DNA of 64,000 nucleotides, from positions 5,890,001 to 5,954,000 of the forward strand of contig NZ_CP041185.1 in assembly GCF_006517255.1 (NCBI RefSeq), given 5' to 3'. The number at the start of each line of letters is the position of its first letter. Position 1 is the stretch's first letter. The notes under the pieces are model-generated. The model searched no databases, was not told the DNA's origin, and saw only the letters and a program-made list of their open reading frames with translations. The DNA is from Janthinobacterium tructae. GTDB lineage: Bacteria > Pseudomonadota > Gammaproteobacteria > Burkholderiales > Burkholderiaceae_D. Position numbers and translations under genes: made by a program. This document shows, one piece after another, positions 2,651 through 52,489 of the stretch.

Positions 2651-4778
2651 TTTCCAGGCTGGCCAGCTTGCCCGCCTGCATGGCCAGCATGGCCGTGATC
2701 GTGTCGTGCGGCGACGGGTGGCCCAGGAAATAGCCTTGCGCCATGTCGCAGCCGTATTCTTCCAGCATCAGCAACTGCTCGTCCGTCTCCACGCCCTCGG
2801 CCACCACCACCATTTTCAAGCCATGTGCCATGGCGATGATGGCACGCGTGATGGCCGCGTTTTCCGTATCCTGCGGCAAGCCGGCGATAAAGCTCTTGTC
2901 GATCTTCAAGGCCCGCACGTCGAAGCGCTTCAGATAATTCATTGAAGAATATCCTGTGCCGAAGTCGTCGATCGACAGGTACACGCCGATGCCGCGCAAT
3001 TGTTCCAGCGTCACCATGGTGGCGCGCGCATCGTCCATCAGGGTGCCTTCCGTCAATTCCAGTTCCAGCAGGCGCGCATCGAGGCCCGTGTCGGCCAGTG
3101 CCGAGAGCACGATCTGCATCAGGTTTTCATCCTTGAATTGCTTGGCCGACAGGTTCACGGCCATGCGGATGGCGCGCCCGCTGTCGCTTTGCCAGGCCTT
3201 GGCCTGGTTGCACGCCGTGCGCAGCACCCATTCGCCGATGGGCACGATCAGCCCCGTCTCTTCGGCCAGCGGGATGAATTCCGTGGGCGAAATGATGCCC
3301 CGCTCGGGATGGCGCCAGCGCACCAGCGCTTCCACGCCGACGATCTGCGTGCTGGGCACGTCGATCTGCGGCTGGTACAGCAGGTACAGCTCGTTGTTCT
3401 GCAAGGCTTTGCGCAAGCCCACTTCCATCTTGACGTGGCTCATGATTTCCATCGTCAGCGATGAGCTGTACAGCTTGGCGTTGTTCTTGCCGCAGTTCTT
3501 CGCGTGGTACATGGCCGTGTCCGCATATTTCAATAGAGAATTGCAATCCTCGCCATCTTCCGGATACAGCGAAATGCCGATGCTGGCCGTGACGAAAATC
3601 TCGTGCCCCTCGATCATGAACGGGCGTCGCATGGCTTCCTTGACCCGGTGCGCCACGTTCAGCGCGTCTTCCACCCGCTCCAGGTCGGGTATCAAAATCG
3701 TGAATTCGTCGCCGCCCAGGCGCGCCAGGTTGCTGCCGCCGAAGCTGGCCTCAAACTCGTGTTCGGCGCGCAGTACCAGGTCGCTGGGGCGGATGGTTTC
3801 GCGCAGGCGCTCGGACACCACCTTGAGCAGATGGTCGCCCACGTCGTGGCCCAGGGTGTCGTTGATGCGCTTGAAGGCATCGAGGTCCATGAACAGCACG
3901 GCGAATTTCTTGTCGTGTTCTTTCGAGCGCAGCAGTTCGCGTTCCAGGGTTTCCAGGAAGGCTTGGCGGTTGGGGATGCCCGTCAGGCTGTCGCAATAGG
4001 CGAGGCGGCGGATCTGCTCTTCCGTGCGCTTGCGCTCGCTGATGTCGCGTACCAGGCCCAGCACCTCGTCGGACCCTGTCGCCACCAGGCGCGCCTCGAA
4101 ATGGCGCGTGCTGTCTTCGTGCGTGAGCGTGTAGTCGACCGAGCCGATATGCTGCGTGGCCAGCACGGCGTGGGCCTGCTCCAGCAGGCGCGCGGCGATT
4201 TCGGGCGGCAGCACAGCGCCGATATGGCTGCCCACGCAGTCGCTGAGGGAAAAGCCGGCGCTGGCGTCGTGCCCCTGTTCATAGTCGAGATAAAAGCCTT
4301 CGCGATTCAGACGAAAGAAGGTGTCGGGGATGGCGGCCAGCACGGCACGGTTGTGCGCGTCGGCGATGCGCAGGCGGGCGATGGCGTCGCTGGCGCGCAG
4401 CACGTACAGCACGCGGTGGCCGAGGATGGGCCAGTTGATGGGCTTGGAAATGAAGTCGGTGGCGCCCACCTCGTAGGCGTGCGTGACCGCTTCCAGCTCG
4501 TCGCCGCCCGTGACCATGATGATGGGCACGGTGCCGCCCACTTCCTGGCGGCGGATTTCGCGGCACACGGCAAAGCCGTCCAGGGCCGGCATGTCGACGT
4601 CGAGCATGACCAGATCCGGCCCGCTGTGCTTGTAGCTGGCCAGCGCCTGCACGCCGTCTTCGGCCTCGATCACGTCCAGGCCTACCTGGGTGAGCATTTG
4701 CCGCATCAGCAAGCGCATCACGGGATCGTCGTCGGCGACCAGCACCAGGCCGCGTGGGGGAGGGAGGGGCGCTGTCAT
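2619..4778 (-). CDS. Response regulator with PAS, GGDEF and EAL domains
   Basis: This 719-residue protein has a receiver domain at residues 10-125 (acidic pocket ADDDP, phospho-acceptor Asp60, Lys in FISKP), a PAS-like segment at 140-250, a GGDEF domain with intact GGDEF at 355-359 and an EAL domain with intact EAL at 483-485, followed by DDFGTGYSS and EGVET. It could therefore make and degrade cyclic di-GMP, with phosphorylation of Asp60 setting the balance. It starts one base after the stop of the hybrid kinase, with AAGGAA as ribosome site, so it is probably the output of that kinase. It is cytoplasmic, with no membrane segment. Confidence 0.92.
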
Positions 4779-4779
4779 G

Positions 4780-7659
4780 TCAGTGTTCCTTCACGAGGAT
4801 GGCGCTCAGCGATTCGCGTACGGCCAGGAAGGCTTGCTGCATCTGCTGCAGCAGGGGAGCCGCGCCCTCGGTACTGCCGGCGCGGCCCAGTTTTTCCATC
4901 TCCTTGCACAGCTGCGCCAGGCCATCGGCGCCCACGTTGGCGCTGCCCGACTTGAGGCTGTGCGCCACCTTGCGCAGCGCTTGCGCATCCGCGCCGGCAA
5001 TCGCTGCGCGCATGGCGCTCAACTGGCGCGGCGTCTCGCTGGTAAAAGCCAGGATGACCCGTTCCAGCAGCGCATCGCCATCGGTGCGCGACAGGGCGCG
5101 GATGTTTTCCAGCGCCTGCCGGTTCACCGGCTGGCCCGCTGACGGGGCGGCCGATGGCGGCGTTACCTCGGGCGGCGGTTCGGGCGGCACTTCCACAGGC
5201 GCTGGCGGTGTTTGCGCCGGCGGCGCCACGCTGTGGTGCACGGTGGCCGCGCGCGGCAGGGCGATCCAGCGCGCAATCGTGTGGCCCAGGTCCTGCTGCG
5301 TAAAAGGTTTACTCAGGTAATCGTCCATGCCGGCCGCCAGGCACGCTTCGCGGTCACCCTGCAGCGCATTGGCCGTGATGGCGACGATGGGCAGCACGCG
5401 CGCGTGGCCGCACTGCTGTTCATGGCGGCGGATTTCCGCCGTGGCGGCAAAGCCGTCCATCACGGGCATCTGGCAATCCATCAATATCAGATCGAAATCC
5501 TCGGCCTGCGCCGCCTGCAAGGCTTCTTCGCCGTTGTGCGCGCACACCACGTCCAGGCCCAGGCTGTCGAGCATGGCCAGCGCCACTTCCACGTTGACTG
5601 GATTGTCCTCGGCCAGCAGCACGCGGCGGCGCTGGCGCCGGCCCACCTGACGCGCCGCGTGCGGCGGATGGATGCGCATGCCCTCGCTGGCGCGCGGCGG
5701 CGTGACGATGCAGTCGAACAGGTCGCATTCGCGGGCCGGCTTGATCAGCTGGAAGGCCACGCCCGCCTCGCGCCGCTGCACGGGATCGGCCGCCGCCTGT
5801 TCCGTGCTCAGCAGCAGTAATTTGAGGTCGGCCAGCAACGGGTCGCTCTTGATGGTGGCGGCCAGGGCCAGGCCGCTGGTGCGCGGCAATTCCATGTCGA
5901 GCAGGGCCACGGCATACGGCGTGCCTGCCTGTGCGGCCGCGCGCAGCTTGCCCAGGCAGTCGCTGGCCGTGCCGGCGCTGTCGCAGCCGATGTGCCAGCT
6001 GGCCAGCTGCCGCTCCAGCACGGCGCGCGTGGCGGGGGTGTGGTCGACGATCAAGGCGCGTAACCCTCGTGTGGTTTTCAGGTTGAAGGACGGGTCATCG
6101 TTGTCGACCCGCCGCTTATCGAAATTTACTTCGAACCAGAAGATCGATCCTTGCGTTAAAGCATTATCGACGCCGATAGTGCCGCCCATCAGCTCCACCA
6201 GCTGTTTCGAGATCGTCAAGCCCAGGCCCGTGCCGCCGTGCTTGCGCGTGGTCGAACCATCGGCCTGCGAGAACGATTCGAAGATGCGCGTCTGCGCCTC
6301 GCTCGACACGCCGATGCCCGTGTCGTGCACCTCGAAGCGCAAGCCCACGCTGGGCGCATCTTCGCTGCACACGGTCACTTTCACGGTGACCTTGCCCGTT
6401 TCCGTGAACTTGATGGCATTGCCCAGCAGATTGACGATGATCTGGCGCAAACGGTTCGGGTCGCCGCAGATGGCGATGGGAATGTCAAACGCGATATCGA
6501 ATTCCAGGCTGATGTTTTTTGCTTGCGCCTGCGGCGCGAACACGTGTTCTATGTCGTCGAGCAATTCGCGGAAATTGAAGCGGATGTATTCCACGCTCAG
6601 CTTGCCCGCCTCGATCTTGGAAAAGTCGAGGATGTCGTTGATGATCACCAGCAAATTCTGCCCCGAGCGCTGCACCATGCTCGTGTAGTGGCGCTGCTGC
6701 GGGCTCAAAGGGCTGGCCAGCAGCAGTTCCGTCATGCCCAGCACGCCATTCATCGGTGTGCGGATTTCATGGCTCATGGTGGCGAGAAACGCGCTCTTCG
6801 CCTGGCTGGCCGCCTCGGCCGCATCCTTGGCCTTTTCCAGCTGCGCCGTGCGCACGCCCACCTGGCGCTCGAGCTGGTCGCGGTAATTGGCCAGGGTACT
6901 GTCGCGGCTGTCGATCTGCGCCAGCATGTCGTTGAAGCTGTCGATCAGCACGCCCAGCTCGTCGCTGCGCTGGTGCGCGATGCGGTGGCTGTAGGTCTGG
7001 CTGCTCGACACTTTTTGCGCTGTATCAATCAGCTTGGTGATCGGCTCGGCAATCACGCTCTTGAAGCGCCGCGCCAGGAACACGGCGATCAGGAAGGACA
7101 GCACGGTAGCGCCGCCGATGGCGCCCACGTGGCGGCCGATGTCGCGCCACATGTGGTTCAGGTCTGCCTCGATCAGCACGGCGCCAATGATCTGTTGCCC
7201 CTCGCCGGGCCGGTAGACGGGACGGTACAGGCGCATGGCGGGCGCCAGGGTCGTGCCCGCACCTTGCGTGACGGGCTGCACGGCCATGTCGGCCAGCAGG
7301 GCCGGGTCCATGTCTTCCGGCGCTGCCAGGCTGTCCGCATGCTGCGGCGCGCGGTACAGGGCGAACAGGCGCCCGCCCCGGTCGAACAGGGCCGCCTGGG
7401 CCACCTCGTCGCGCGCGGCCAGCGCGGCCAGCACCTGCTCCGCCTGCGGCTGTGCCGATTTGCCCACCAGCAAGGGCACCGCGCCGGCCGCACCGATCAC
7501 GCCCGCCAGCGACAACAGTTGCTTGCCTTCATCGTTCTTGTGGTTGAGCACGGACGTCAGTGCAAACGCCACGAACACCAGCAGCAGCGCGCAGCCTGAC
7601 GACAGTACCGAGATCATGGTCAGCTTCTGGCTGATGCTGGAGCGTTGGAAATTGAACAT
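4780..7659 (-). CDS. Hybrid sensor histidine kinase (HAMP-HisKA-HATPase-REC-REC-Hpt)
   Basis: A 959-residue inner-membrane kinase of BarA-like layout. Membrane segments lie at about 17-37 and 178-198, enclosing a periplasmic sensor of about 140 residues. A HAMP domain follows, then HisKA with His297 in TMSHEIRTP, and an ATPase domain ([17 protein letters not shown]). The first receiver is probably degenerate at its acidic pocket (LIVDHTP). The second is canonical ([19 protein letters not shown]). A C-terminal Hpt domain has its His in [13 protein letters not shown] proline-rich linker precedes the Hpt. The downstream REC-GGDEF-EAL gene starts one base after this stop, a likely phosphorelay partner. 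The ligand is unknown. Confidence 0.93.
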
Positions 7660-17900: not shown

Positions 17901-19682
17901 TCACTCCTTTTTATATTTGCGTTGCAGATGCGCCAAATGCGCGCTTGGCCCGCCTGGCTGCCGTTTTTTGTGGTGCAGATAGATGGCTTCGGTATCAATC
18001 CGGGCGCATGGCGCGCCCTCCCTATCAAAACTCCGCCCAACATAGAAGGACGGAGCAAAATTTTTATTTTTCCCGATCGGATTTTCGATCGGATTTTTCT
18101 TGGCCCATGCCGGGCGCGAACAGTTATTTACACCAGTCCGAGGAACGGCAAGGGCCACCCCGGCCCGGTCTATCGTCCAGCGGTAGCGGGTGGACTCATA
18201 GACCGCATGCGGCTGCGCCGCCAGATACACGCCTACCGGCCTGTGCGCCTCCACCTGCTCATAGCGCCCTTCGACGCCCTCTACCCGCTTGGCAATCTGT
18301 ATCGCGGCCTGGCGGCCCACGGTAGGCCCGCCCATGGCCCGTATAAAGCGGGCGAAGTCGGCGCGCTGAGCGATGGCCGGATTGTCGGACTCCACTTTCT
18401 GCGCGGCCTGATAGGCTTCGCGGATAGGCTCAGGCGCATTGCGCACCGACTCCTCCGATAGGCGGCGGAATTCGCGCCACACGCCCACCGGCACGCCGCC
18501 GATCTGCTGGAACTGGCGAATGCCCCACACCTGCGACCAGTACGTGACGCGCTGGGAGGCGGTGAATTCCATATTGCCGAACATATCGGGCGCGATGACG
18601 TAGGTTCTGCCGTCCTCGAATACCTTGTGATCCCCCACCCCGGCGCCGTCGATGTTCTTGCTGACGTATTTGGCGATATAGCCCGCCGCCGTGCCTTTTC
18701 CGGCCTCGATCCTCACCAGCTTGACGCGGTTTTTTATGGCGCCCGGCTCGTCACGGTCTTCATGCATGGCGTAGGCGCTTATCACGCATTCCATCGCGGT
18801 CTGGTGCTCAGGCGCGACGAACAACAGCATGTGCCAGTGCGGGCATCCGTCCGTGTGCGGCTCAGCAATTCGGAAGCCGTATGGCCGGATACCGCGACGG
18901 TGCAGCGATGACCGGATACGCTTCCATACGTCCGCCAGATAGGCCTGCGCCGCGCGCGGCGTCGGGCTGCCGAATTCCGTGTACTTCGCGTTCGTGCCGC
19001 CCACCGAGTGGTATTTGCTGGGACAAGTGACCGTCCAGAACATGCCGACGTGGCGCATCTTGTCGGCCACTTCTTCGAAGCCGCGTATGCGCAGCATCAA
19101 TTCGCCTCGGCGCAGGGTTTTATTGCCCATGCCCAGCGCGGCCAGTTCGGCCAGACTGTAGACGTCGCCGTGCTCGTTGATGGCCGTGACGGCTGCCAGT
19201 GCCTTCTGGTTTGCCTCGTTTTGCGCCGCTTGTGCCAGGCACGTTTCACGGCTGACATACGGATCAGCGCGCACGTAGGTCAGGCCCAGCTGGATCGACG
19301 TGTGCTCAAAGCGACGCATCAATTCCTTGCGCAGTGCGCGGCGCCACCATGCGTGATCTGCTGCGCGCGCGATGTAGCCGCCTATCGTCTTCTTATCGTC
19401 AGGCGGCAGCACGCCGCGCCTGGCGCATATCGCATCAATTGCCGCCTTGATGGCGTGCTCATCATGCAGGCGCGCGCAGACCTCGTAGCACTCGCGGGCG
19501 GCCTGCAAGGCGGCCACCGATATTGCACCTGGCCCAGTCATGGCGCCATTGCTGTCGGCCAGCGGCAGGCGCTGATCGTCGGCCAGCACGGCATCGACTA
19601 CGCGCTGGCGCGGCACGTTCAAGCCGCCGAACATGCTCTGCACGGCGGCGGCCATGCGTGACGGTATGCCCATGGAAAGCAT
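17901..19682 (-). CDS. A: Replication endonuclease, P2 gpA family (HUH)
   Basis: A 593-residue protein with the HUH metal-binding motif in DGCPHWHMLLF (near residues 282-284) and the paired catalytic tyrosines in GYIAKYVSK (near 335 and 339). This is the layout of P2 gpA, which nicks the phage origin and stays joined to the 5' end in rolling-circle replication. The ATG overlaps the upstream stop (TGATG), so translation is coupled. By analogy with P2, the origin nick site should lie inside this gene; I could not locate it. The largest gene of the early operon. Confidence 0.92.
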   Translation of the reverse strand: MLSMGIPSRMAAAVQSMFGGLNVPRQRVVDAVLADDQRLPLADSNGAMTGPGAISVAALQAARECYEVCARLHDEHAIKAAIDAICARRGVLPPDDKKTIGGYIARAADHAWWRRALRKELMRRFEHTSIQLGLTYVRADPYVSRETCLAQAAQNEANQKALAAVTAINEHGDVYSLAELAALGMGNKTLRRGELMLRIRGFEEVADKMRHVGMFWTVTCPSKYHSVGGTNAKYTEFGSPTPRAAQAYLADVWKRIRSSLHRRGIRPYGFRIAEPHTDGCPHWHMLLFVAPEHQTAMECVISAYAMHEDRDEPGAIKNRVKLVRIEAGKGTAAGYIAKYVSKNIDGAGVGDHKVFEDGRTYVIAPDMFGNMEFTASQRVTYWSQVWGIRQFQQIGGVPVGVWREFRRLSEESVRNAPEPIREAYQAAQKVESDNPAIAQRADFARFIRAMGGPTVGRQAAIQIAKRVEGVEGRYEQVEAHRPVGVYLAAQPHAVYESTRYRWTIDRAGVALAVPRTGVNNCSRPAWAKKNPIENPIGKNKNFAPSFYVGRSFDREGAPCARIDTEAIYLHHKKRQPGGPSAHLAHLQRKYKKE

Positions 19683-20107
19683 CAATGCACCTTCCCACTT
19701 GTCTCAGGCATGCGCCCGCCATTCATACATTTCTTGACCACACTGAGATTGCCTTGCAGCTTGTCCAGTTCGACCCAGATGCGGCCGCGCTCCAATGCAT
19801 TGAATTTATTTAGGGCGTCGCGCGCACGCTCTTTTGGCATGCGCGCCGACATGACGGCTACCATGCGAGCAGCCAGCGGTACACGCGTCCAGTAGGCGGC
19901 GCGGATAGCCTCGACGTCTGCCGGTTTGGCGATCATCGCCAGCACTGCCGCAGAGCGTTCCATGCGCTGTTCGCGTGGTGTTGCATTGATCTGCGCGGAC
20001 ACAGCGTCCATTTCGGCCAGAAACGCCCTGGTTTCCAGCTCTTGCTTGGTTAGAGTAGGGCCGGCGACTGCTGCGACGGCTACCAATTCATTGGTTATGC
20101 TGCGCAT
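19682..20107 (-). CDS. Early phage protein upstream of gpA, unknown
   Basis: A 141-residue, largely helical protein (TPREQRMERSAAVLAMI, VPLAARMVAVMSARMPKERA) of unknown function. Its stop shares bases with the start of the replication gene, so it is made together with gpA and could assist replication. AGGGGGTGG precedes the ATG at 20107; the GTG two codons earlier is a weaker choice. Confidence 0.6.
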   Translation of the reverse strand: MRSITNELVAVAAVAGPTLTKQELETRAFLAEMDAVSAQINATPREQRMERSAAVLAMIAKPADVEAIRAAYWTRVPLAARMVAVMSARMPKERARDALNKFNALERGRIWVELDKLQGNLSVVKKCMNGGRMPETSGKVH

Positions 20108-20325
20108 CACCACCCCCTGATCCAGCCAAAGGCAGACATCAACACTGGCGCGAACATGACCAATCCGGTCAGCAGACCGCTGCAGAATGTTTTCAGATTC
20201 TCTTTCATTAACTTCCTCTTTTTGGGTTTGAACGAGTTCAACACACTCAAAACCTTGTCGCGCGCGGCCAGAATCTCGGCGGCAGGCTGGAAGGACAGGT
20301 GGTTGTCGATAAGGGACGCCGGCAT
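20107..20325 (-). CDS. Small early protein with a C-terminal membrane segment
   Basis: A 72-residue protein: a polar helical N-terminus, a basic stretch (FKPKKRKLMKENLK) and a hydrophobic segment at about 47-68 (GLLTGLVMFAPVLMSAFGW). AAGGACTGAACC precedes the ATG. Its stop overlaps the next gene start. The function is unknown; an inner-membrane location is likely. A shorter product from the internal ATG (MKENLKTF) is possible. Confidence 0.5.
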   Translation of the reverse strand: MPASLIDNHLSFQPAAEILAARDKVLSVLNSFKPKKRKLMKENLKTFCSGLLTGLVMFAPVLMSAFGWIRGW

Positions 20326-20328
20326 GGT

Positions 20329-20427
20329 TCAGTCCTTGATGGCGCCGATGGCCCGCAAAACGTCAGGGGTAATGACGATCAGGAGCGACAGCAGCCAGAT
20401 GCCGCAGGTTTTGGCCAGGCGCAGCAT
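20329..20427 (-). CDS. 32-residue membrane peptide
   Basis: A very short frame beginning MLRLAKTCGIWLLSLLIV and ending AIGAIKD. It is one membrane segment with a basic N-terminus. Its ATG shares bases with the stop of the upstream gene in TGATG, the same coupling seen at several junctions of this operon. That is the main reason to call it real. The function is unknown. Confidence 0.4.
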   Translation of the reverse strand: MLRLAKTCGIWLLSLLIVITPDVLRAIGAIKD

Positions 20428-20831
20428 CAGCGTGCCCATTCCTTGGCGAAGTACTTGGCCCAGTAGGTCAGCGTGCGCAACGAGTTGTTGCTGGAGTAGA
20501 CGACGCCTGCTTCGCTGGCGAACATGTAGCACAGCACAATGGGCAGCTCTCCGACCATGGCGCGCTGGTTGTCCGGCATGAAGAAGCCGCCAAGCTGCAG
20601 CGCATGCAGGTCGCTGATGATGAAGGTGATATTGGCCGCGCCGTAGGCGTGGTAGGTTTTGGCAACCTCGCGGATATAGGCGGACAGTTCCTTGACGCTG
20701 GTGCCAGCGTTGGCGTGCAGAAGGAAGCAGGTCGGCGCCACAGGCACGACGCATTTTTGTAGGGCCGGGCGGGCGGTATTCGGGGCCGGGGAGTTGTCGG
20801 CATGACTGGTGGCGTGCAGCGTGTTTTCCAT
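20427..20831 (-). CDS. Early phage protein, unknown
   Basis: A 134-residue protein without a recognised domain. The centre (CFLLHANAGTSVKELSAYIR) and the end (TYWAKYFAKEWAR) look like a folded alpha/beta protein. AAGGAAAACCG precedes the ATG. It lies between the Ogr-like gene and the replication genes, where P2-like phages keep variable small genes. The 121 bases upstream to the Ogr gene show nothing further. Confidence 0.5.
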   Translation of the reverse strand: MENTLHATSHADNSPAPNTARPALQKCVVPVAPTCFLLHANAGTSVKELSAYIREVAKTYHAYGAANITFIISDLHALQLGGFFMPDNQRAMVGELPIVLCYMFASEAGVVYSSNNSLRTLTYWAKYFAKEWAR

Positions 20832-20952
20832 CGGTTTTCCTTATTTCAGGTTGAACGAATCCCGCACGCTCAAAAAGGAGCGCTGCAGGACACAGCAAAA
20901 GAGGGGGAGTTACAGCGGCCGGGCTACGGCGGCGCGAGGATTGGGATAGTCA

Positions 20953-21216
20953 TCAGCAGCCCGCAGTCAGGTCCAGGGCCAGCTGGCTGGTGGCCGCCGT
21001 GCGCGCATGCTGGGACATCGGGATGCGGATATCCGGCTTGGGCATGGCGGACAGCGAGAGGGTGCGCAGCACTTCCAGGCCCGCCACGAAGGAGTGCCCG
21101 CAGTCCGGGTTCTGGCACATATAGGTGATTTCCTTGAACATGGCGGACATCGTGCGGCTCTTGACGGCGCGGACGGTGTATTCGCAATGCGGGCAGGGCA
21201 GGCCGATGACTCTCAT
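20953..21216 (-). CDS. ogr: Ogr/Delta-type zinc-finger late-gene activator
   Basis: An 87-residue protein starting MRVIGLPCPHCEYTVRAVKS, with a second pair CQNPDCGHSF. The Cys-X2-Cys and Cys-X4-Cys pairs spaced like this are the zinc finger of P2 Ogr and P4 Delta, which recruit RNA polymerase to the late promoters. The C-terminal tail (about 40 residues) is variable. I chose the ATG at 21216 because upstream residues of the longer frame are the shadow of the neighbouring gene. Unlike P2, it lies within the early operon rather than after gene D. Confidence 0.85.
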   Translation of the reverse strand: MRVIGLPCPHCEYTVRAVKSRTMSAMFKEITYMCQNPDCGHSFVAGLEVLRTLSLSAMPKPDIRIPMSQHARTAATSQLALDLTAGC

Positions 21217-21401
21217 TTCAGCTTTCTTTCCACTTGGTACAGGGCGCGACCGCGACCCGTCATGTTTTTTGACTGTATGCGTAAGCGCGACTTGACGAGC
21301 CATTCAGCCGCCTGATCGATACTTGCCAGCCCCTGGCGTTGGCGCACGAGTTCCAGCACCGCGCGCTCTTCGTCATTGAGGTTAATTTGATGGTCTGGCA
21401 T
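21213..21401 (-). CDS. Small helical early phage protein
   Basis: A 62-residue protein (INLNDEERAVLELVRQRQGL, then DQAAEWLVKSRLR). The pattern resembles small DNA-binding, RHH-like proteins of P2-like phages, but the assignment is tentative. It overlaps the Ogr start by 4 bases, so the two are probably translated in tandem. Confidence 0.55.
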   Translation of the reverse strand: MPDHQINLNDEERAVLELVRQRQGLASIDQAAEWLVKSRLRIQSKNMTGRGRALYQVERKLK

Positions 21402-21438
21402 TTTCTGTAACTTTAGAGTTGCTCAAAAGTGACTCGGT

Positions 21439-21642
21439 TTAAACGCTACGACGCTGTACGCTGTCGATGGTGGCGTCATCCAAGGCGATCACGGCCAGGG
21501 CTTCACGCATCACGATCTGGCGAACCAGCACCGCAAGCTCTTCGCCCTGGTAATTGGCGATCGAGGAAACGAGCTGGTGCTCATAGTCGTCGAGGCGCAG
21601 CATGACGCGGTGGCTGCGGATACGTTTTGCATCGGGGTACAT
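21439..21642 (-). CDS. Small early phage protein, possible RHH DNA-binding protein
   Basis: A 67-residue protein with RSHRVMLRLDDYEHQLVSSI followed by a helical stretch (LAVLVRQIVMREAL). A short beta strand followed by two helices is the ribbon-helix-helix pattern, so DNA binding is plausible. AAGGACAACGTC precedes the ATG. It sits second in the leftward operon from the operator, where Cox/Cro-like or regulatory proteins are expected. Confidence 0.5.
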   Translation of the reverse strand: MYPDAKRIRSHRVMLRLDDYEHQLVSSIANYQGEELAVLVRQIVMREALAVIALDDATIDSVQRRSV

Positions 21643-21652
21643 GACGTTGTCC

Positions 21653-21856
21653 TTAGTGGGTGGGTTTGGATGCGAGTTCGCGCTTGTAGTCGGCGAGGCC
21701 GCGCAGGATCAGGAGGCGCAAGAGCCATGCGCGTGACCGCTGTTGAGCTGCGGCGAGAGTTTCGATTTCCTTTACCTCGTCAGGGGCCAGACGAACGCCA
21801 AGCGGCTGGGAGGTGACGCCTTTGGTAATGCGTCCGACTTTTGACAAATTATTCAT
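21653..21856 (-). CDS. First gene of the leftward early operon, RHH-like
   Basis: A 67-residue protein (MNNLSKVGRITKGVTS, PLGVRLAPDEVKEIETLAAA). The strand LGVRLAPDEVKEIE followed by helices looks like a ribbon-helix-helix DNA-binding protein. As the gene nearest the divergent operators it occupies the position of P2 cox or lambda cro. A longer reading from 21901 would run into the operator and is rejected. No clear Shine-Dalgarno is visible. Confidence 0.55.
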   Translation of the reverse strand: MNNLSKVGRITKGVTSQPLGVRLAPDEVKEIETLAAAQQRSRAWLLRLLILRGLADYKRELASKPTH

Positions 21857-21891
21857 AATGTTATGATCTGTAATCGCTACGGAATGGCGTA

Positions 21892-21944
21892 AATATATCA
21901 CTCATTTGAGTGATTTGGAAAGGTATTTGTACTCAAATGAAGTA
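21892..21944. promoter_or_regulatory. Divergent early promoter with two operator dyads
   Basis: A perfect dyad TCACTCATTTGAGTGA lies at 21898-21913 and a related imperfect dyad TACTCAAATGAAGTA at 21930-21944. Their centres are about 31 bases apart (three helical turns). For the leftward operon, TTCCAA and TATATT (minus strand) are spaced by 17 bases, and the first dyad fills this spacer. The second dyad covers the repressor start codon. This is the expected layout of an autoregulated immunity switch; binding by the neighbouring repressor is inferred. Confidence 0.7.
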
Positions 21945-22380
21945 TTTTTTTGATCGTCTTAAGGAAGAACGGAAGCGCCTTGGCCTCAATCAGGACGAGT
22001 TCGCTGCTCTTGGTGGGGTAAAAAAAGGTGCCCAGTTCAACTATGAAAACGGCTCCCGTACGCCAGATTCTGACTATTTGGCGGCCGTTGCTGCGGCTGG
22101 AGTAGATGTGTTGTATTTGCTGACAGGAGAACATGCGCTGTCAGCGTTGCCTGCGGACGAGCATGAACTGTTGACTGGCTATCGAAGTATGGACGTTCGC
22201 GGGAAAGCAGGCGTACTTGGGATGATTAGCGGCATGAGCTCGCCAACGCCCCCGGCATCCCAAGCAGGGAATGCCCCACACGTCGAAACCCACGGCAAGA
22301 TTGGACAAAATTTCGTGGGGAACATCATTGGGCCGCAGACTTTTAATGTGGCCGGCAGCGGACGAAAAAAGGAAAAATAG
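21937..22380 (+). CDS. XRE-type phage repressor (C/CI analogue)
   Basis: A 147-residue protein with an N-terminal helix-turn-helix (RLKEERKRLGLNQDEFAALG, then SRTPDSDYLAAVAAAGVDVL) of the XRE class. The C-terminal part is short and lacks a LexA-like Ser/Lys protease, so RecA-driven self-cleavage is unlikely. In this respect it is like P2 C. It is divergent from the early operon, across the two operator dyads. I chose the ATG at 21937; the frame extends to 21910 but that would include the operator. It probably maintains lysogeny. Confidence 0.85.
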   Translation: MKYFFDRLKEERKRLGLNQDEFAALGGVKKGAQFNYENGSRTPDSDYLAAVAAAGVDVLYLLTGEHALSALPADEHELLTGYRSMDVRGKAGVLGMISGMSSPTPPASQAGNAPHVETHGKIGQNFVGNIIGPQTFNVAGSGRKKEK

Positions 22381-22534
22381 TGTGCAAATGATTTACCTTC
22401 TTATGCATATTATAATTGCTGCGTGTTTTGTCTGCATACTGCGCATACCGATTTGATGCCTGAAGGTGGCGTAACGTCAACGTCTGAGCAACTTCGGCTG
22501 GATTCTGTTAGCGATACAAAGAAAGGAACAATTG

Positions 22535-23401
22535 ATGTTTAACTTTTTGGTGATTGCTTCAGACATTACTTCATCGCGTGGTATTGTCACATTGGGAAAA
22601 GACCGTGTTTTTGGATGTACCAACACTGATATAGAGATGAAGTATGCCCCTGAAGGCGTGCTTGATCAACCTGCCTTGATGTCATTGCCGTTGGTTATCA
22701 CGAACGAGTCCAGTAGTGACCCGGCTTTTCGGGCTTTTGCTCGGGTTGGCGCGATCACCAAGATCAGGCGCGACGATTCGAATTACCACATCGAGTACCT
22801 ACTCGATTCAAACATTCCCCCTATTGCCAATGATGTCCTTGAATCACTCGGCCCTCAGTTGAACTTCGTGCCTGCGGGAAGGCGATCCTGGGGAGATTTT
22901 CACACTAATCATTGGGCAGTCAAGGACGCCGATCTCTTTCGTGTTTTGTACACTGAAGGCTTGGGGCATCGGCAGCCAACAGTCTTTACCTTACCCCAAG
23001 AACCAGTCGATCCAAATTTGGTCTCGGTGATGATGCCATTCGATGGCGGGTTTAATGGAGTTTTTGCAGTGCTGCAAAGCGTAGTAAGTGCAGCCGGGAT
23101 GCGATGCCTACGTGCCGACAATATATGGGAGCACCATGTGCTTATCCAAGATGTTGTGAAGCTTATCGCGAGTGCGAGAATTGTGATATGCGATCTGACC
23201 GGGAAGAACGCGAATGTCTTTTATGAAGCTGGGATCGCGCATGCGCTAGGTCAGGATGTGATCCTGATTGCGCAGCATGAGACCGACATTCCGTTCGATC
23301 TCCGCCACATCCGCTACGTTAAATACCTCAACAATGAAGAAGGTTTGAGGGTGTTGGCGGAAAGTGTAGGGAAACGGTTGCAAAGTCTGGTCAGCAAGTG
23401 A
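22535..23401 (+). CDS. TIR/deoxyribosyltransferase-fold cargo protein
   Basis: A 288-residue protein. The C-terminal part (about 160-285) begins with VSVMMPFDGGFNGVF and contains DLTGKNANVFYEAGIAHALG (220-239), the pattern of the nucleoside 2-deoxyribosyltransferase/TIR-like superfamily. Members act on nucleotides or NAD in signalling and defence. Glu231 in FYEAG is the likely catalytic residue. The N-terminal 150 residues are unrecognised and could be a sensor. The ATG at 22535 has GAAAGGA upstream. The gene is AT-rich and lies between the repressor and the tail gene D on the opposite strand to the late genes, so it may be expressed in the lysogen. Confidence 0.65.
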   Translation: MFNFLVIASDITSSRGIVTLGKDRVFGCTNTDIEMKYAPEGVLDQPALMSLPLVITNESSSDPAFRAFARVGAITKIRRDDSNYHIEYLLDSNIPPIANDVLESLGPQLNFVPAGRRSWGDFHTNHWAVKDADLFRVLYTEGLGHRQPTVFTLPQEPVDPNLVSVMMPFDGGFNGVFAVLQSVVSAAGMRCLRADNIWEHHVLIQDVVKLIASARIVICDLTGKNANVFYEAGIAHALGQDVILIAQHETDIPFDLRHIRYVKYLNNEEGLRVLAESVGKRLQSLVSK

Positions 23402-23566
23402 ATAGGGCCCGTACGCAGAGACTTCAGCTTGGTATTTGCATAGCTGGGCCTGTGTCAGAATTGTAGACCTGGCTTTGGAGTGACGAACTTTCGATTGGGA
23501 TTGGTTTTAAATTGGATAAATAAAATTTTCCGGTAATATTTTTTAAATTTGACAGAGGCAAAAAAT

Positions 23567-25219
23567 ATGGATTTTAATCATGGTGATCGGTCAGAGGTTT
23601 TGGACTGGGTGGCGATAAATTCTGATGTTGAAGAGCGAGATAATCTTTTAGCTTGGAAAATGAGTAATGCCAATCCTTCGCAAGCTAATATTAGCGAATG
23701 GCCTCTTCTTCCAAAAGTAATTTCCCGGCTCGAACCTCTCTGCCTAAGGAAAATGACCAGTTTTGGGGATATTGCTGCGGAAGACGACGCCGTTTTAAAC
23801 TATTTCTTGAAAACACCCGCAGTTAAAGAAATTTTGGATGGCAAAGTATTACTGGTTTTAGGTCGCAAAGGGTCTGGTAAGACTGCTCTGGTACGGCACT
23901 TTACTGAAGGTCAAAGTGGATTAAATTCTCGCGGCTTAACTCTTGGTCAATACCCTTGGAAAGTTCACGAGCAAAGAGCTGATTCTTCTGTAAATGAAGT
24001 AGACGCATATGTGGAGTCTTGGCGTTATCTTATTGCGACTCAAATAGCTGCGTTATTGTTGGCGCAGCCAAATATTGACCTGGAGACCGAGGAGGCAAAG
24101 TCTATTGCTGAGTTTTTTACTGTAAATTATGGCGGATTGTCGCCGGAACTCGGTGATATTCTTCGGCCCGGGAAATTAATGCTATCTAAAGCTTCATTCG
24201 AGCCTCAAGTTATGGGAAGTAAACTAGGGAGCGTTACCCTAGAGCGTACGAATGGAGATGCGGGGCGTGAATTGAAAGCTCTGACTGATGCGCTTTTATC
24301 TGCAGTGGAATCACTAGGTGCGCAAGTAGGTGTTGAAAAAATATATCTACATTTTGATGAGCTAGATCGTGGTTTAGTTGTACTTGATGATGCTCGGAAA
24401 AACTTGTTGATAGGGTTGATTGTCGCTGCGCGTGAAGTGTCTCGTACAACGGCTCTTAATTTCGTGAAGTGTGTGCCAATTGTTTATTTGCGTACAGATC
24501 TTTGGGAAGGTCTGAACTTTTCTGATAAAAATAAAATTTCGCAAGGGAAAACCCTTAACCTTGAGTGGGATTCGAGTTCTCTTTCCGACCTAATTAACGA
24601 ACGTATTAAGGCGATCATCGGAAGTAGTTCTAATTGGGATACTATTTCTTCGCCAAGCCTAATGCGTGGATCACAGAAGAAATGGGCGCATATTCTTGCG
24701 CGTACATTTCTGCGCCCAAGAGATGTTATTAGCTTTCTTAATATAGCCCTAAAATTGGCAGTAAAACGCGATCTCGATAAGGATGTACCGCTAATTTTGG
24801 AGAATCGGGATATTGTTGGTGCTCGTGAAAAATATTCTTCCTACCTAAAGCAAGAATTGAAGGATGAAATTATTCCTCATTGGCAATATTGGGAGGATGC
24901 ATTGAAAGCTTTTTCTGAGCTTGCCACGCAAACATTCAAGATCGATCAGTTCAGAGTGGAGTATGAAAAGAGAAAGTCCACGGGGAATTTGTTAAGTCCA
25001 GACGAGGCTATCTCTAAGTTGTATGAATTTTCTGTTGTGGGGTACGAAAGGCGCAGCGGTTATGGTGGCTCATCTTGGGTTTTTCAATATACTACCCCAG
25101 AAGCAGGGTGGGACAATGCTGCCACAAATTTGAAAGTACATGTGGGACTTAAGGAAGTAGCAAAGCTGCGAGAAGAAAGGACACCCGGTGCGAATTTGGA
25201 AGGAGGGGCCGAAAATTAA
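23567..25219 (+). CDS. P-loop ATPase of Sll1717 type (cargo)
   Basis: A 550-residue STAND/KAP-like ATPase. Walker A is GRKGSGKT at 99-106, and IYLHFDELDRG at 259-269 has the character of Walker B. A further conserved-looking segment is FLRPRDVISFLNIAL near residue 385, typical of Sll1717-family ATPases. The family often occurs in phage-defence islands; no enzymatic target is known. The ATG at 23567 with AGAGG is preferred to a TTG at 23549. The gene is strongly AT-rich compared with the phage core and follows the TIR-like gene by 165 AT-rich bases in which I see no other gene. Confidence 0.7.
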   Translation: MDFNHGDRSEVLDWVAINSDVEERDNLLAWKMSNANPSQANISEWPLLPKVISRLEPLCLRKMTSFGDIAAEDDAVLNYFLKTPAVKEILDGKVLLVLGRKGSGKTALVRHFTEGQSGLNSRGLTLGQYPWKVHEQRADSSVNEVDAYVESWRYLIATQIAALLLAQPNIDLETEEAKSIAEFFTVNYGGLSPELGDILRPGKLMLSKASFEPQVMGSKLGSVTLERTNGDAGRELKALTDALLSAVESLGAQVGVEKIYLHFDELDRGLVVLDDARKNLLIGLIVAAREVSRTTALNFVKCVPIVYLRTDLWEGLNFSDKNKISQGKTLNLEWDSSSLSDLINERIKAIIGSSSNWDTISSPSLMRGSQKKWAHILARTFLRPRDVISFLNIALKLAVKRDLDKDVPLILENRDIVGAREKYSSYLKQELKDEIIPHWQYWEDALKAFSELATQTFKIDQFRVEYEKRKSTGNLLSPDEAISKLYEFSVVGYERRSGYGGSSWVFQYTTPEAGWDNAATNLKVHVGLKEVAKLREERTPGANLEGGAEN

Positions 25220-25339
25220 CAGCGGTGCGGATCTTTTATTACATAAAGGATGGATCGCTTCGTGACAGAAAAGGTGTAAGGCACGGATATTTATAGTTTT
25301 TCGTACTGCCTCATTGCATGCTTATGCTTACGAAGGCTT

Positions 25340-26572
25340 CTAATGTTCTTCGCCGTTCTCTTTGATTATGTCGCGCACTTCTTCGATATGTTTCCAAGCA
25401 TGCAGCGCCGCTCGCTTCGCGGCCTGCTTGCTCTTGTAAAGATGCTCCAGCGTCTTGAGCGTGCCTATAGCACCAGCCTGCTCCTGCCCCGCCTTTTTCT
25501 TCTTCGCCGCCACGTCCTTCCACTTGGCCACCACGCCCGTGACGCCTTCGTCCGGGTCTTTCTCTTCCTCGCGTTCGGCCTCCACCGCTTCCGTTTTCGT
25601 CTCAAATTCCACACGCGTGGTAAAGCCGTTGCCGCCCAGGCTGTGCGTGACCTTGACTGATAGCCATTCGGTGGCGTCGATCTCGGGCTTGAAGCCCTTC
25701 ACCGTCACGGGCGATTGCGGGAACACGGCCGGGTTGCCCAGGGCCAGGCTCATTTCAAAGGTGGCCAGGCCGCGCAGGATGCGCTGCCATTCGGCCACGG
25801 CCGCCGCGCGCGCGTCCGTTTCGTTGGCGAAGGTGGTGCGCAGGCGCTTGCTGTTGCCGGGCACGCCGGCCACCACGCTGCGGCGCCGGGCGTAGCGCTC
25901 GTCATGCCAGAAGGCGCGCACGCCCGTGTAGGCGTCGCTTTCGGCGCTGTGGTAGCGGTGGCCGTCGCCCAGGGCGCGCGTGATGGGGATCACGGGCAGC
26001 GCCTTGCCGCTGGCGGTGCGGCTCTGGTTGATGGGAATGAAAAGCAGGGTGTCATTCTTGACGGTGGCCACCGCGTCGTACTTCCGGCCCAAGCGGCGCA
26101 GGAAGGCCGCATCGCTTTCGTGGGTCTGGTCGATGTGCTCGACGGCGGTATCGCGCAGGCGCGCCGACACGCCCGACGCCAGCTCGTTGCGAAAGGCGAT
26201 CGCCTCGATGATGGCGCCCAGGGTGGTCTTGTGGAAGCTGTGTTCCTGCTGCTGTTTAAACGTGTCGATCAGGTTGGCCGACCTGGCGCGCAGGGTGATG
26301 GTGTCGGGCGCGCCGCTGTGCTCCACCTCGTCCACGGTGAACTTCCCCATGTCCACCAGGCCGGACGATTGCCAGCCCAGCGCCAAGGCGATCTGCGCGC
26401 CGCGCGGCGGCAAGGCCAGCTTGCCGTCGCTGTCGTCCAGGGAAATGTCGAGCTGGTCGCTCTCGTCGCCACGGCACAGGGTCAAGGTCAGATTGATTAG
26501 CCGCGGTGAAACGATGGCCGTCAAATCCTTGTCCTCGATGCTGACCTTGAAGGCGGGGATATGCTCGCTCAT
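25340..26572 (-). CDS. D: Tail protein D (late control D)
   Basis: A 410-residue homologue of P2 gpD, the tail-tip hub protein (gp27/VgrG-like fold). It opens with AFKVSIEDKDLTAIVSPRLI and carries the block SGAPDTITLRARSANLIDTF and GRKYDAVATVKNDTLLFIP. The C-terminal tail is Lys/Glu-rich and coiled. The ATG overlaps the U stop in an ATGA. It is the last gene of the FI-D late operon. The 120-base gap to the convergent ATPase gene holds no clear terminator. Confidence 0.92.
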   Translation of the reverse strand: MSEHIPAFKVSIEDKDLTAIVSPRLINLTLTLCRGDESDQLDISLDDSDGKLALPPRGAQIALALGWQSSGLVDMGKFTVDEVEHSGAPDTITLRARSANLIDTFKQQQEHSFHKTTLGAIIEAIAFRNELASGVSARLRDTAVEHIDQTHESDAAFLRRLGRKYDAVATVKNDTLLFIPINQSRTASGKALPVIPITRALGDGHRYHSAESDAYTGVRAFWHDERYARRRSVVAGVPGNSKRLRTTFANETDARAAAVAEWQRILRGLATFEMSLALGNPAVFPQSPVTVKGFKPEIDATEWLSVKVTHSLGGNGFTTRVEFETKTEAVEAEREEEKDPDEGVTGVVAKWKDVAAKKKKAGQEQAGAIGTLKTLEHLYKSKQAAKRAALHAWKHIEEVRDIIKENGEEH

Positions 26573-27177
26573 TTGAACTTGTCCGCCGCGCTGCCGATGG
26601 CGCCGCTGATGCTGCCGCCGATCTTGTCTTTCATTTCTCTGACGACGCCGCCATATTTCGACGTGATGCCGCCGACCACATTGCCCACTACGCTGCCCAC
26701 GGCATTCTTGGCCGCGCCGGCAATGCTGCTAGTCATGCCGTCGATGCTGAGCATGTTTTTCAGGTCGCCGATGTCGCCCAGGCCGACCATGGCCAGCACG
26801 CCGTCGTCGTCGCGCTTGAGCGTAATCGAGAACTCGACGCGCCGCGCGCCGCCGCTGCCGTCAAGGATGGTGCGGCCCTCGGTCATGCTGGTGATGCGGT
26901 AGGAGCCGAGAATGCGGCCCGTGCCCTGGATCAGAATCCACGATTTACCGGTGTCCGCCATCATGCGCAGCGCATCGAGCGAGTAAAGGGAGCCGGTCAG
27001 TTCCGGCGCCACCCAGCCCGACAGGGTAATCGTGTCATCACCTGGCCCCACGTACTGGTGCGCGTCGCGCAAGCCCACGCGGGCCGTGCTGGCGTGCTTC
27101 CATTCCGTTTGCCGCTGCAGCTCGTGATAGGCCAGGGTCGGCAGGCTGAACACGAACATTCCTAAAATCATCATCAT
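26569..27177 (-). CDS. U: Tail protein U
   Basis: A 202-residue homologue of P2 gpU, which binds the tape measure/tail end. The N-terminus MMMILGMFVFSLPTLAYHEL and the segment WILIQGTGRILGSYRITSM are typical. Its C-terminus is longer than in P2 (159 residues), with a Gly-rich, repetitive tail (AAKNAVGSVVGNVVGGITSK). It overlaps gene D by 4 bases and starts 16 bases after the tape-measure stop. Confidence 0.9.
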   Translation of the reverse strand: MMMILGMFVFSLPTLAYHELQRQTEWKHASTARVGLRDAHQYVGPGDDTITLSGWVAPELTGSLYSLDALRMMADTGKSWILIQGTGRILGSYRITSMTEGRTILDGSGGARRVEFSITLKRDDDGVLAMVGLGDIGDLKNMLSIDGMTSSIAGAAKNAVGSVVGNVVGGITSKYGGVVREMKDKIGGSISGAIGSAADKFK

Positions 27178-51136: not shown

Positions 51137-51305
51137 GGGGCATGCGATTTGACGCGTTTTGACGCACTTTGAGCGGTTTTTCGTGCGGGTGAGATGGGCG
51201 TTTTGAATTGCCTTAAATGTCATCTGATGCCGCTTCTAACGGGCTCAAAGGTTGCCAAAGTTAGCGAAATTGGCGTGTTTAAATTTGTATGTAATAATTC
51301 TATCT

Positions 51306-52058
51306 ATGATCCCAATAGCCCTCACTAAAATTCAAGATGCGTTAGAAAAGCTTTCTCCCTACATGGATTTGCGCACTCCCATAGACGAAATGACGTTGCG
51401 CAGAATCAAAAATGATGTAGTGAAGAATATGGCTGTTGACCCATATCTTGGCTCTGTGGCACTTGGCAATATTGCACTCTTGGAGTGGAATGAGGCGGAA
51501 GTAAGTGCTCAATACGCGAATGTGTTGCGTTTGAGGAACAATTGTGAATCCAGAGCTTACTTTGCTATGGCATTGCAGGTGCTCGGCAAGTTCGAAGAAG
51601 CGTCCTACTATGCACGGGAGGCAAGCAAGCTTGCGCCAACTGATCTCGGCTTGTTCCGTGAGGCGATATTGTATACGTTCAATTCAGGGCAATTTGCAGT
51701 AGCTGCGAGTCTTTGTGAGGATTACAAAATGAGGTCACCCGCTCAGCCTTATCCCGATGAGGAAGCAATTTTTTCAGCATGCAAAGCTATGTCTAAGGCC
51801 GGATTAGACGAGGCGCTTTTGGTTAAATGCAATTCGATTGCATTTGAGTTGCTACGTGAGCGTAGGACTGCTTATGCCTCAACTACCGTTGAGAGTGACC
51901 TCCAGGATGGCTGCATAATTTACTTCATCAAACTTGATGAAAGTGTTGAGAAGGTTGATGAATTGGATCGCGAGTTAGGAGAGCGACTCTTCGACCGTAT
52001 TCCTGAGTTTGATCCTTCTAAGTATTGGGTAGGTTACGCCGTGGAGTCGTTTCAATGA
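51306..52058 (+). CDS. TPR-like cargo protein next to attR
   Basis: A 250-residue, AT-rich soluble protein. Helical repeats with TPR character are visible at about 50-130 (VALGNIALLEWNEAEVSAQY, ALQVLGKFEEASYYAREASK). I recognise no catalytic motif. I chose the ATG at 51306; upstream residues to 51252 are unlikely. Its stop overlaps the start of the HEPN gene (ATGA), so the two are made together. By position it matches the tin/old cargo site of P2, which carries phage-exclusion genes. Role inferred: regulator, sensor or antidote of the HEPN protein. Confidence 0.6.
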   Translation: MIPIALTKIQDALEKLSPYMDLRTPIDEMTLRRIKNDVVKNMAVDPYLGSVALGNIALLEWNEAEVSAQYANVLRLRNNCESRAYFAMALQVLGKFEEASYYAREASKLAPTDLGLFREAILYTFNSGQFAVAASLCEDYKMRSPAQPYPDEEAIFSACKAMSKAGLDEALLVKCNSIAFELLRERRTAYASTTVESDLQDGCIIYFIKLDESVEKVDELDRELGERLFDRIPEFDPSKYWVGYAVESFQ

Positions 52059-52489
52059 CGATTACTCATGCGGATGTGCTGGGAACAGCCAAGCGGTTAT
52101 CGGTGAGTTTGATTGCGGATCAGGACCCGTGTGAATCGGATCTGAGGAGTGTTGCTTCACGAGCTTACTATGCAAGTCTCCACGCTGCAATCGATGCACT
52201 TCCACTCGACCTTCAGCCGACTGAAGAAGAAAGCACCGGAAAGAGTTCACATCAGGCCGTGATCGATGCTGTAATTCGTTGGTCGAAAAGCGTTCGACCT
52301 GGACGTACTGAGGCCATTTTTGTAGCACGAAATTTGACTAGACTTAAGAGTGTACGTAAAAAGGCGGATTACTTTATTCAACAGGATTTTTCTGTAAATG
52401 AAGCTCGGAGCGCGTTGCATATAGCGACTCAAACTGTAGCAAGTGCTGAGAGAGCAGGAGCGCAAGCTAAAGTTGTTTTGACCGCTTAA
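52055..52489 (+). CDS. HEPN-domain protein next to attR (putative RNase toxin or effector)
   Basis: A 144-residue, mostly helical protein. It contains RAYYASLHAA, with Arg36-x6-His43, which fits the R-x(4-6)-H catalytic signature of HEPN ribonucleases, followed by SSHQAVIDAV and KKADYFIQQDF, as in small HEPN proteins. HEPN proteins act as RNases in toxin-antitoxin and abortive-infection systems. The gene is AT-rich and translationally coupled to the TPR-like gene. A partner antitoxin of the MNT type is absent. RNase activity is inferred from the motif. Confidence 0.65.
   Translation: MTITHADVLGTAKRLSVSLIADQDPCESDLRSVASRAYYASLHAAIDALPLDLQPTEEESTGKSSHQAVIDAVIRWSKSVRPGRTEAIFVARNLTRLKSVRKKADYFIQQDFSVNEARSALHIATQTVASAERAGAQAKVVLTA

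Follow-up and report, generated by a model that had tools for sequence, protein, structure and literature searches.

Two adjacent genes in a 64,000-nucleotide stretch of the Janthinobacterium tructae genome (contig NZ_CP041185.1, positions 5,890,001 to 5,954,000; this whole stretch is the window) are carried by a prophage between its repressor gene and a tail gene. It appears likely that the first (gene A) encodes a single-gene abortive-infection-type protein of a P2-like prophage, that the second (gene B) is an independently acquired ATPase gene, and that both are cargo. Several elements of this explanation are directly supported by the data, namely the domain composition as given by profiles, the recurrence of the N-terminal module of gene A, the conservation of the sequences, the existence of a cargo interval and the lack of a consistent pairing of A and B. 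The label P2-like and the names gene D and Ogr follow the usual gene order of such phages. The features concerned, in coordinates of the window, are the following (NDT, nucleoside deoxyribosyltransferase).

22535..23401, plus strand: gene A, N-terminal module and NDT/TIR-like domain, 288 aa, from ATG 22535 to the stop ending at 23401
22535..22987, plus strand: N-terminal module of gene A, residues 1-151 (12-sequence alignment with 12 invariant columns)
23012..23398, plus strand: NDT/TIR-like domain of gene A, about residues 160-288 (PADLOC TIR effector; PF05014 below threshold; match to CAP12-type TIR profile)
23225..23227, plus strand: codon of Glu231 (in FYE), the probable catalytic residue (unchanged across 34 diverse proteins and placed on the Glu of the CAP12-type TIR in the profile alignment)
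23402..23566, no strand: 165 bases (GC 39%) separating the stop of gene A from the gene B ATG
23567..25219, plus strand: gene B, predicted Sll1717-family P-loop ATPase, 550 aa from the ATG (NF047389, 1.1e-88; alignment)
23861..23884, plus strand: Walker A motif GRKGSGKT of gene B (sequence and alignment)
21937..22380, plus strand: phage repressor, on the strand of A and B, left border of the variable interval
25340..26572, minus strand: gene of a tail protein (from its place, gene D; PHROGs), right border of the variable interval
20953..21303, minus strand: phage transcriptional regulator (PHROGs; Ogr-like), a conserved anchor among sibling prophages

An earlier, sequence-only reading of this DNA had described two AT-rich plus-strand genes between the repressor and gene D. 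Both are indeed intact and low in GC (49% for A and 43% for B, versus 63% for the stretch from gene D to the tape measure gene). The open frame of gene B extends from a TTG at 23549 (556 aa), and the ATG at 23567 is preceded by GAGG and yields the 550-aa product; with that start, the separation of 165 bases given in the earlier reading holds. On the plus strand of this gap no sigma-70-like site was found at the scan threshold. The full-length relatives of gene A are 60-89% identical to it and the ratio of non-synonymous to synonymous substitution rates (dN/dS) versus the two closest is 0.19 and 0.17; relatives of gene B reach 64% and 51% identity, and to this its family score is added (see below); both genes are thus real beyond chance. 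The low ratios indicate that gene A is under purifying selection and maintained. Among the neighbouring genes PHROGs identified a nicking replication protein, two tail proteins, a tape measure protein and the transcriptional regulator.

The two parts of gene A

The C-terminal part of gene A contains the motif MMPFD, starting at residue 166, and the stretch DLTGKNANVFYEAGIAHALG at residues 220-239. It matched the TIR effector of PADLOC (E 8.4e-8), and a profile of gene A-type domains (112 sequences given, 94 used after the filter of the program) matched the CAP12-type TIR domain with 94.7% probability (E 5.9e-8 over 103 columns, with FYE placed over NVILE; the reversed control reached 0.1%). 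A TIR-superfamily domain with a conserved Glu is thus found in gene A by profile only, and to the CAP12-type TIR. As had been proposed from the letters of the sequence, the domain belongs, by profile, to the TIR/NDT superfamily. A comparison of 34 diverse proteins that have the domain showed that Glu231, Gly233 and Asp255 are invariant in all of them, and that 16 match PF05014 (nucleoside 2-deoxyribosyltransferase) at 0.01 or better. The conserved Glu of the PF05014 motif acts as the nucleophile. Glu231 is probably catalytic, and the domain probably uses it to cleave the N-glycosidic bond of nicotinamide adenine dinucleotide (NAD+) or a related nucleotide. Iyer et al. (2022, PMC9503650) group the TIR and DrHyd domains as a single clade of enzymes that process nucleotides, several of which are NADases, and state that FRG might be an NADase as well. 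Among PDB sequences, the whole of gene A had weak matches (spermidine synthase 0.33, CD-NTase-associated protein 12 E 0.9, Rcl 0.95), and its 27 matches among 50,697 phage records were confined to the C-terminal part.

The N-terminus of gene A had been called unrecognised. This was correct in so far as none of 12 members matched any Pfam family at 0.1, AbiJ_NTD models included, and a search of PDB sequences gave nothing better than E 0.21; it is at the same time a recurrent module that is joined to several effector types. The module, of about 145 aa and as judged by sequence uncatalogued, has H126, W127, K130, D133 and L134 among its invariant columns. No title or opening abstract was found that describes it, although unnamed modules cannot be searched by name. 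Three surveys, of the family (12 of 392 genomes), the class (7 of 369) and the phylum (11 of 378; each count includes the genome of the window), together yielded 26 distinct genomes with the module besides that of the window. An additional search of 11 genomes with alignment A5 matched the genome of the window only.

The partners of the module in these 26 genomes, six of which were classified by motif only, are NDT-like (12), TIR_2-type (4), SEFIR-type (2), FRG (2), CAP12 (1), HEPN/Abi_C-like (1, by eye) and a fragment or none (4). Besides the NDT-like domain, the C-terminal partners that Pfam identified are TIR_2, SEFIR, CAP12-type TIR and FRG. The first two of these models often hit the same domain and are not cleanly separate: the 'SEFIR' proteins match both models, with the better E for TIR_2 (L030, L208). 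A module joined to such varied effectors has the sensor-effector layout known from abortive-infection proteins. A tree of 61 modules, a sample biased to the NDT-like type since gene A was the first query, has 7 partner changes for 5 classes (the minimum possible being 4), with partner types set by motif patterns and checked by Pfam in part; its well-supported branches require at least 2 changes for the CAP12 type. In addition, dN among the three closest gene A sequences is higher for the module (0.083, 0.132 and 0.096) than for the enzyme domain (0.034, 0.034 and 0.024), at an overall dN/dS of 0.16-0.19, which in this tiny sample agrees with a recognition part that changes while the enzyme stays the same.

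The HEPN/Abi_C-like case is a protein encoded in L280 (1501-2370, plus strand) in which the module is fused to a domain that appears, by eye, to carry the HEPN/Abi_C motif; the idea that the module joins NAD-type effectors only was dropped because of it. Elsewhere the module ends short effector-less proteins (L221 4668-5318 and L224 4509-5147, both plus strand), each followed by an apparent small helix-turn-helix frame and, in L224, by an apparent AAA ATPase (by eye).

According to the favoured explanation, genes on the strand of the repressor, like A and B, would be on in the lysogen, and the N-terminal module of gene A would hold the enzyme inactive. A component of an incoming competing phage may bind the module, upon which the NDT/TIR-like domains would assemble and consume NAD+, the presumed substrate, or a nucleotide. 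The infection would then be stopped at the cost of the cell, an abortive outcome. A single sensor-like module that serves several suicide-type enzymes would provide one handle on phage recognition across defence families: a ligand identified in one search might be tried on TIR, SEFIR, FRG and NDT-like proteins alike.

The cargo interval of the prophage

A search for gene D across 40 genomes of the genus recovered it in 18, that of the window included. We compared 20 of the 23 near-full-length copies of D other than that of the window (G320, G146 and G295 were left out). All 20 of these siblings keep the order of regulator, a 67-aa gene, repressor (46-97% identical), variable genes and the end of D, so that the description of A and B as prophage cargo is well founded. 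Neither A nor B was found in the interval between repressor and D of the 20 siblings. The PADLOC scan took in ten proteins encoded by nine of the intervals, several of which hold further genes outside it, and gave matches in five, three of them strong: Septu in L261 (PtuA 3.1e-106, PtuB 9.8e-49), bSEFIR in L268 (4.7e-105) and NsnA (4.1e-53) or PD-T4-2_A (8e-31) in L263. The interval thus has the traits of a defence hotspot of P2-like phages: its two flanking genes are conserved, what lies between them varies, and defence genes are found there. Together with the effector-type domain of gene A and the suicide-type partners of its module, these defence genes make the defence role suspected in the sequence-only reading likely.

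The cargo genes of the other four scanned intervals (L253, L255, L256 and L265; 338-826 aa) encode proteins that had no PADLOC match among those scanned, and are candidate members of undescribed systems. The repressor-gene D interval of Janthinobacterium-group prophages is in this respect a compact place to mine defence genes. A 66% identical homologue of gene A in genome G273 (L154 8604-9467, plus strand) has beside it what by eye appears to be an integrase gene, and lies about 6 kb away from genes of a related prophage whose repressor is followed by a different gene. In the window itself, two small open frames of 268 and 154 aa (51252-52489, plus strand), the second HEPN-like by eye, appear to be placed at the prophage's far end, possibly as a second cargo site.

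Gene B and the rival explanations

Gene B scored 298.4 bits (E 1.1e-88) against the NCBIfam model NF047389 of Sll1717-family P-loop ATPases, which has a cut-off of 75, and 34.6 bits against that of the DS41_1 anti-phage protein (NF053860), which has a cut-off of 370. The description of the product as an Sll1717-type ATPase of some 550 residues with Walker A GRKGSGKT was thus accurate, and on sequence grounds gene B is a member of that family and not of the latter. Its matches among PDB sequences were weak and located at the P-loop (the best an ABC-F protein, E 0.0023; DHX8 helicase 0.15), none was found among the 50,697 phage records, and a literature search found no paper using the word Sll1717. 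It was probably acquired independently, and the role most likely for it is that of a second defence gene.

The earlier reading had likened A and B to the effector-ATPase make-up of abortive-infection systems, with two independent defence genes as the alternative; the comparative data fit the alternative better, and a defined two-gene system is not supported. Among the 392 genomes of the family 32 have a match to any part of A, 20 have a match to B and only two have both: that of the window and G153, where the match to A is limited to the C-terminal domain, with a fused ATPase (L056) about 4 kb away from it. None of the seven other genomes with a full-length, split or contig-cut A has a match to B. 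We furthermore inspected 38 distinct A sequences, duplicates removed (two are on one plasmid, L073; the split copies L014 and L156 are not counted), with uneven flanks of at least 1.4 kb on both sides in 26, that of the window included, and at least 3 kb in 21. A homologue of gene B is present in one of the 38 loci, the window's own, so that the co-occurrence outside the prophage that had been set beforehand as a test is not seen. Conversely, no A-like gene was found in the adjoining stretches examined of the closest B homologues (64%, 51%, 51% and 44%). A conserved A-B operon was rejected on these co-occurrence counts. Moreover, the DNA similarity to the two closest relatives of A is confined to that gene (22522-23409 and 22509-23401). 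Considering the borders of this similarity, the scant co-occurrence and the B homologues without A, the two are most simply viewed as two cargo genes, probably independent of each other.

Several results weigh against the favoured explanation as a whole. The score of gene A for PF05014 stays below the gathering score (13.7 versus 28.8 bits, E 0.069), and SEFIR and TIR_2 profiles built here did not match the profile of its domain (1.7% and 0.5%), for which reason kinship to these is not claimed. Iyer et al. (2022, PMC9503650) report that viruses have fewer NADase-type TIR and DrHyd domains than expected and that their DrHyd is of the cyclase kind only; gene A would then be unusual as a prophage-borne NADase, or might possess a cyclase activity. 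In the module tree the modules cluster strongly by partner (200 shuffles gave no value this low), with 34 of the 35 NDT-like modules in one group, so that, in view of the seven changes, the exchange of partners is real but rare. The PADLOC scan covered nine of the 20 sibling intervals, and of its matches that in L260 is to a generic protein kinase (mad6, PD-T4-6) and that in L270 a weak one to PDC-M01B over a zinc-finger stretch. A gene of one kind, 221-233 aa long (323 aa in L266) and phage-like by eye, recurs in eight of the 20 siblings, and the interval of L258 has no large plus-strand gene. Finally, in four distant Sll1717-like proteins (778-821 aa) a single chain unites the ATPase with an NDT/TIR-like domain in front of it, as identified by profile match:

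L193 4200-6578: NDT/TIR-like::Sll1717-like ATPase fusion
L196 4248-6584: NDT/TIR-like::Sll1717-like ATPase fusion
L205 4071-6536: NDT/TIR-like::Sll1717-like ATPase fusion
L056 1-2343: NDT/TIR-like::Sll1717-like ATPase fusion

Their NDT/TIR-like domain was detected with single sequences (E 7.8e-11 to 5.9e-8) and by profile (97.8% over 75 columns; reversed control 0.3%), and a second, degenerate copy is suggested by eye, with weak scores (E 0.09 in L193, above 3 in the other three).

These fusions indicate that such domains do work together somewhere, which leaves room for a functional tie between A and B in the prophage. More specifically, A and B could form a two-component system, a split form of the natural fusions, in which the Sll1717-type ATPase would assemble on a trigger and activate the effector in trans. 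The adjacency of the two genes on one strand with a short gap agrees with this, as does L155, where a 414-aa AAA ATPase (4424-5668, minus strand; PDC-S59 match 1.2e-26) lies 173 bases downstream of a 60% identical homologue of A. That ATPase is, however, a different one, without a match to gene B, and we regard the two-component system as rather unlikely: the loci of the other 37 distinct A sequences lack a B homologue (flanks of 1.4 kb or more to either side in 25), the closest B homologues have no A-like gene near them in the stretches examined, A already has a module of its own, the two genes differ in GC and in their relatives, and the fused ATPases are only about 22-26% identical to gene B (38% in L205, over 69 residues only). 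A broader proposal, to which we give an equally small chance, combines two claims: that the module is an undescribed general infection-sensing domain for four or five classes of presumed NAD-consuming effectors (NDT/DrHyd-like, TIR_2/SEFIR, CAP12-type TIR and FRG), occasionally HEPN-like ones, and that A and B are a recently split or still assembling NDT/TIR-like::Sll1717-ATPase fusion with the ATPase as a second trigger.

Alternatively, A and B could be prophage accessory genes unrelated to defence, serving for instance the regulation or maintenance of the lysogen. Copies of gene A on plasmids indeed lie near replication or partition genes, RepB (JS666), a repABC region (Agrobacterium) and parA/parG (Serratia), and some sibling intervals contain phage-like genes. 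Nevertheless, the domain of gene A is of the effector type, nearly all other partners of the module are TIR-type or suicide-type domains and defence genes occupy the equivalent interval of some siblings, which makes this improbable.

A last alternative involves a paralogue, A', in which an enzyme domain of the gene A type (C-terminal identity 43-58%) stands behind an AbiJ_NTD5 module, so that where the two are neighbours two putative sensors share one enzyme type. The copies beside gene A (AbiJ_NTD5 and NDT/TIR-like; the module of L087 was detected by a profile made here and not by Pfam) are:

L003 5038-5808: A' beside gene A
L072 5755-6621: A' beside gene A
L074 5973-6725: A' beside gene A
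L087 1427-2167: A' beside gene A

These four places, in about three lineages, are found in Pseudomonas QS1027 (and also its viral contig), the similar viral contig L087, a Sphingorhabdus plasmid and an Agrobacterium plasmid. That gene A normally works with A', and that the copy in the window is a relic of this pair, is nonetheless very improbable, as the remaining 34 of the 38 distinct A sequences, within their uneven flanks, showed no A' next to them, A' also occurs without A (L017, L092), the genome of the window has no further match to gene A at E 0.001 and dN/dS indicates that the gene is maintained.

Comparison with known systems

The favoured explanation, a single-gene effector protein and an independent ATPase as cargo, relates to several described systems. 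A variable interval with exchangeable defence genes is shared with the hotspots of P2-like phages, which have been located between gpA and gpQ and at fun in E. coli, and between repressor and integrase in Vibrionaceae (Rousset 2022, PMC9122126; Vassallo 2022, PMC9519451); the site used here, between repressor and gene D, is not mentioned in the portions of these papers that were available. Gene B, with 298 versus 75 bits, lies well above the curated cut-off of the Sll1717 family. With regard to a retron with an NDT-type effector, no Rfam match was found in 19500-27000 and the scanned neighbours had other identities or none, although no dedicated search for a reverse transcriptase was made.

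The C-terminal domain of gene A resembles CAP12/Pycsar-type TIR and other TIR effectors by profile, including the aligned Glu, but no cyclase or receptor is among the neighbouring genes that were identified and the N-terminal module is a different one. Swarozyc (DUF4062; preprint PMC13174449) fits the picture proposed for gene A, in that one gene encodes an NADase related to TIR/NDT, an auxiliary domain does the sensing and the outcome is abortive infection; gene A differs in that it has no DUF4062 match and its putative sensing part precedes the enzyme. Unlike the AbiJ-NTD, the module of gene A has no Pfam match (AbiJ_NTD included), and its partners are here mostly TIR, NDT and FRG. The architecture is nevertheless much alike: according to Anantharaman et al. 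(2013, PMC3710099), AbiJ-NTD proteins combine an N-terminal module of about 100-160 aa with varied suicide-type enzymes (HEPN, TIR, NDT and REase), and the module is proposed to meet phage components and to restrain the toxin.

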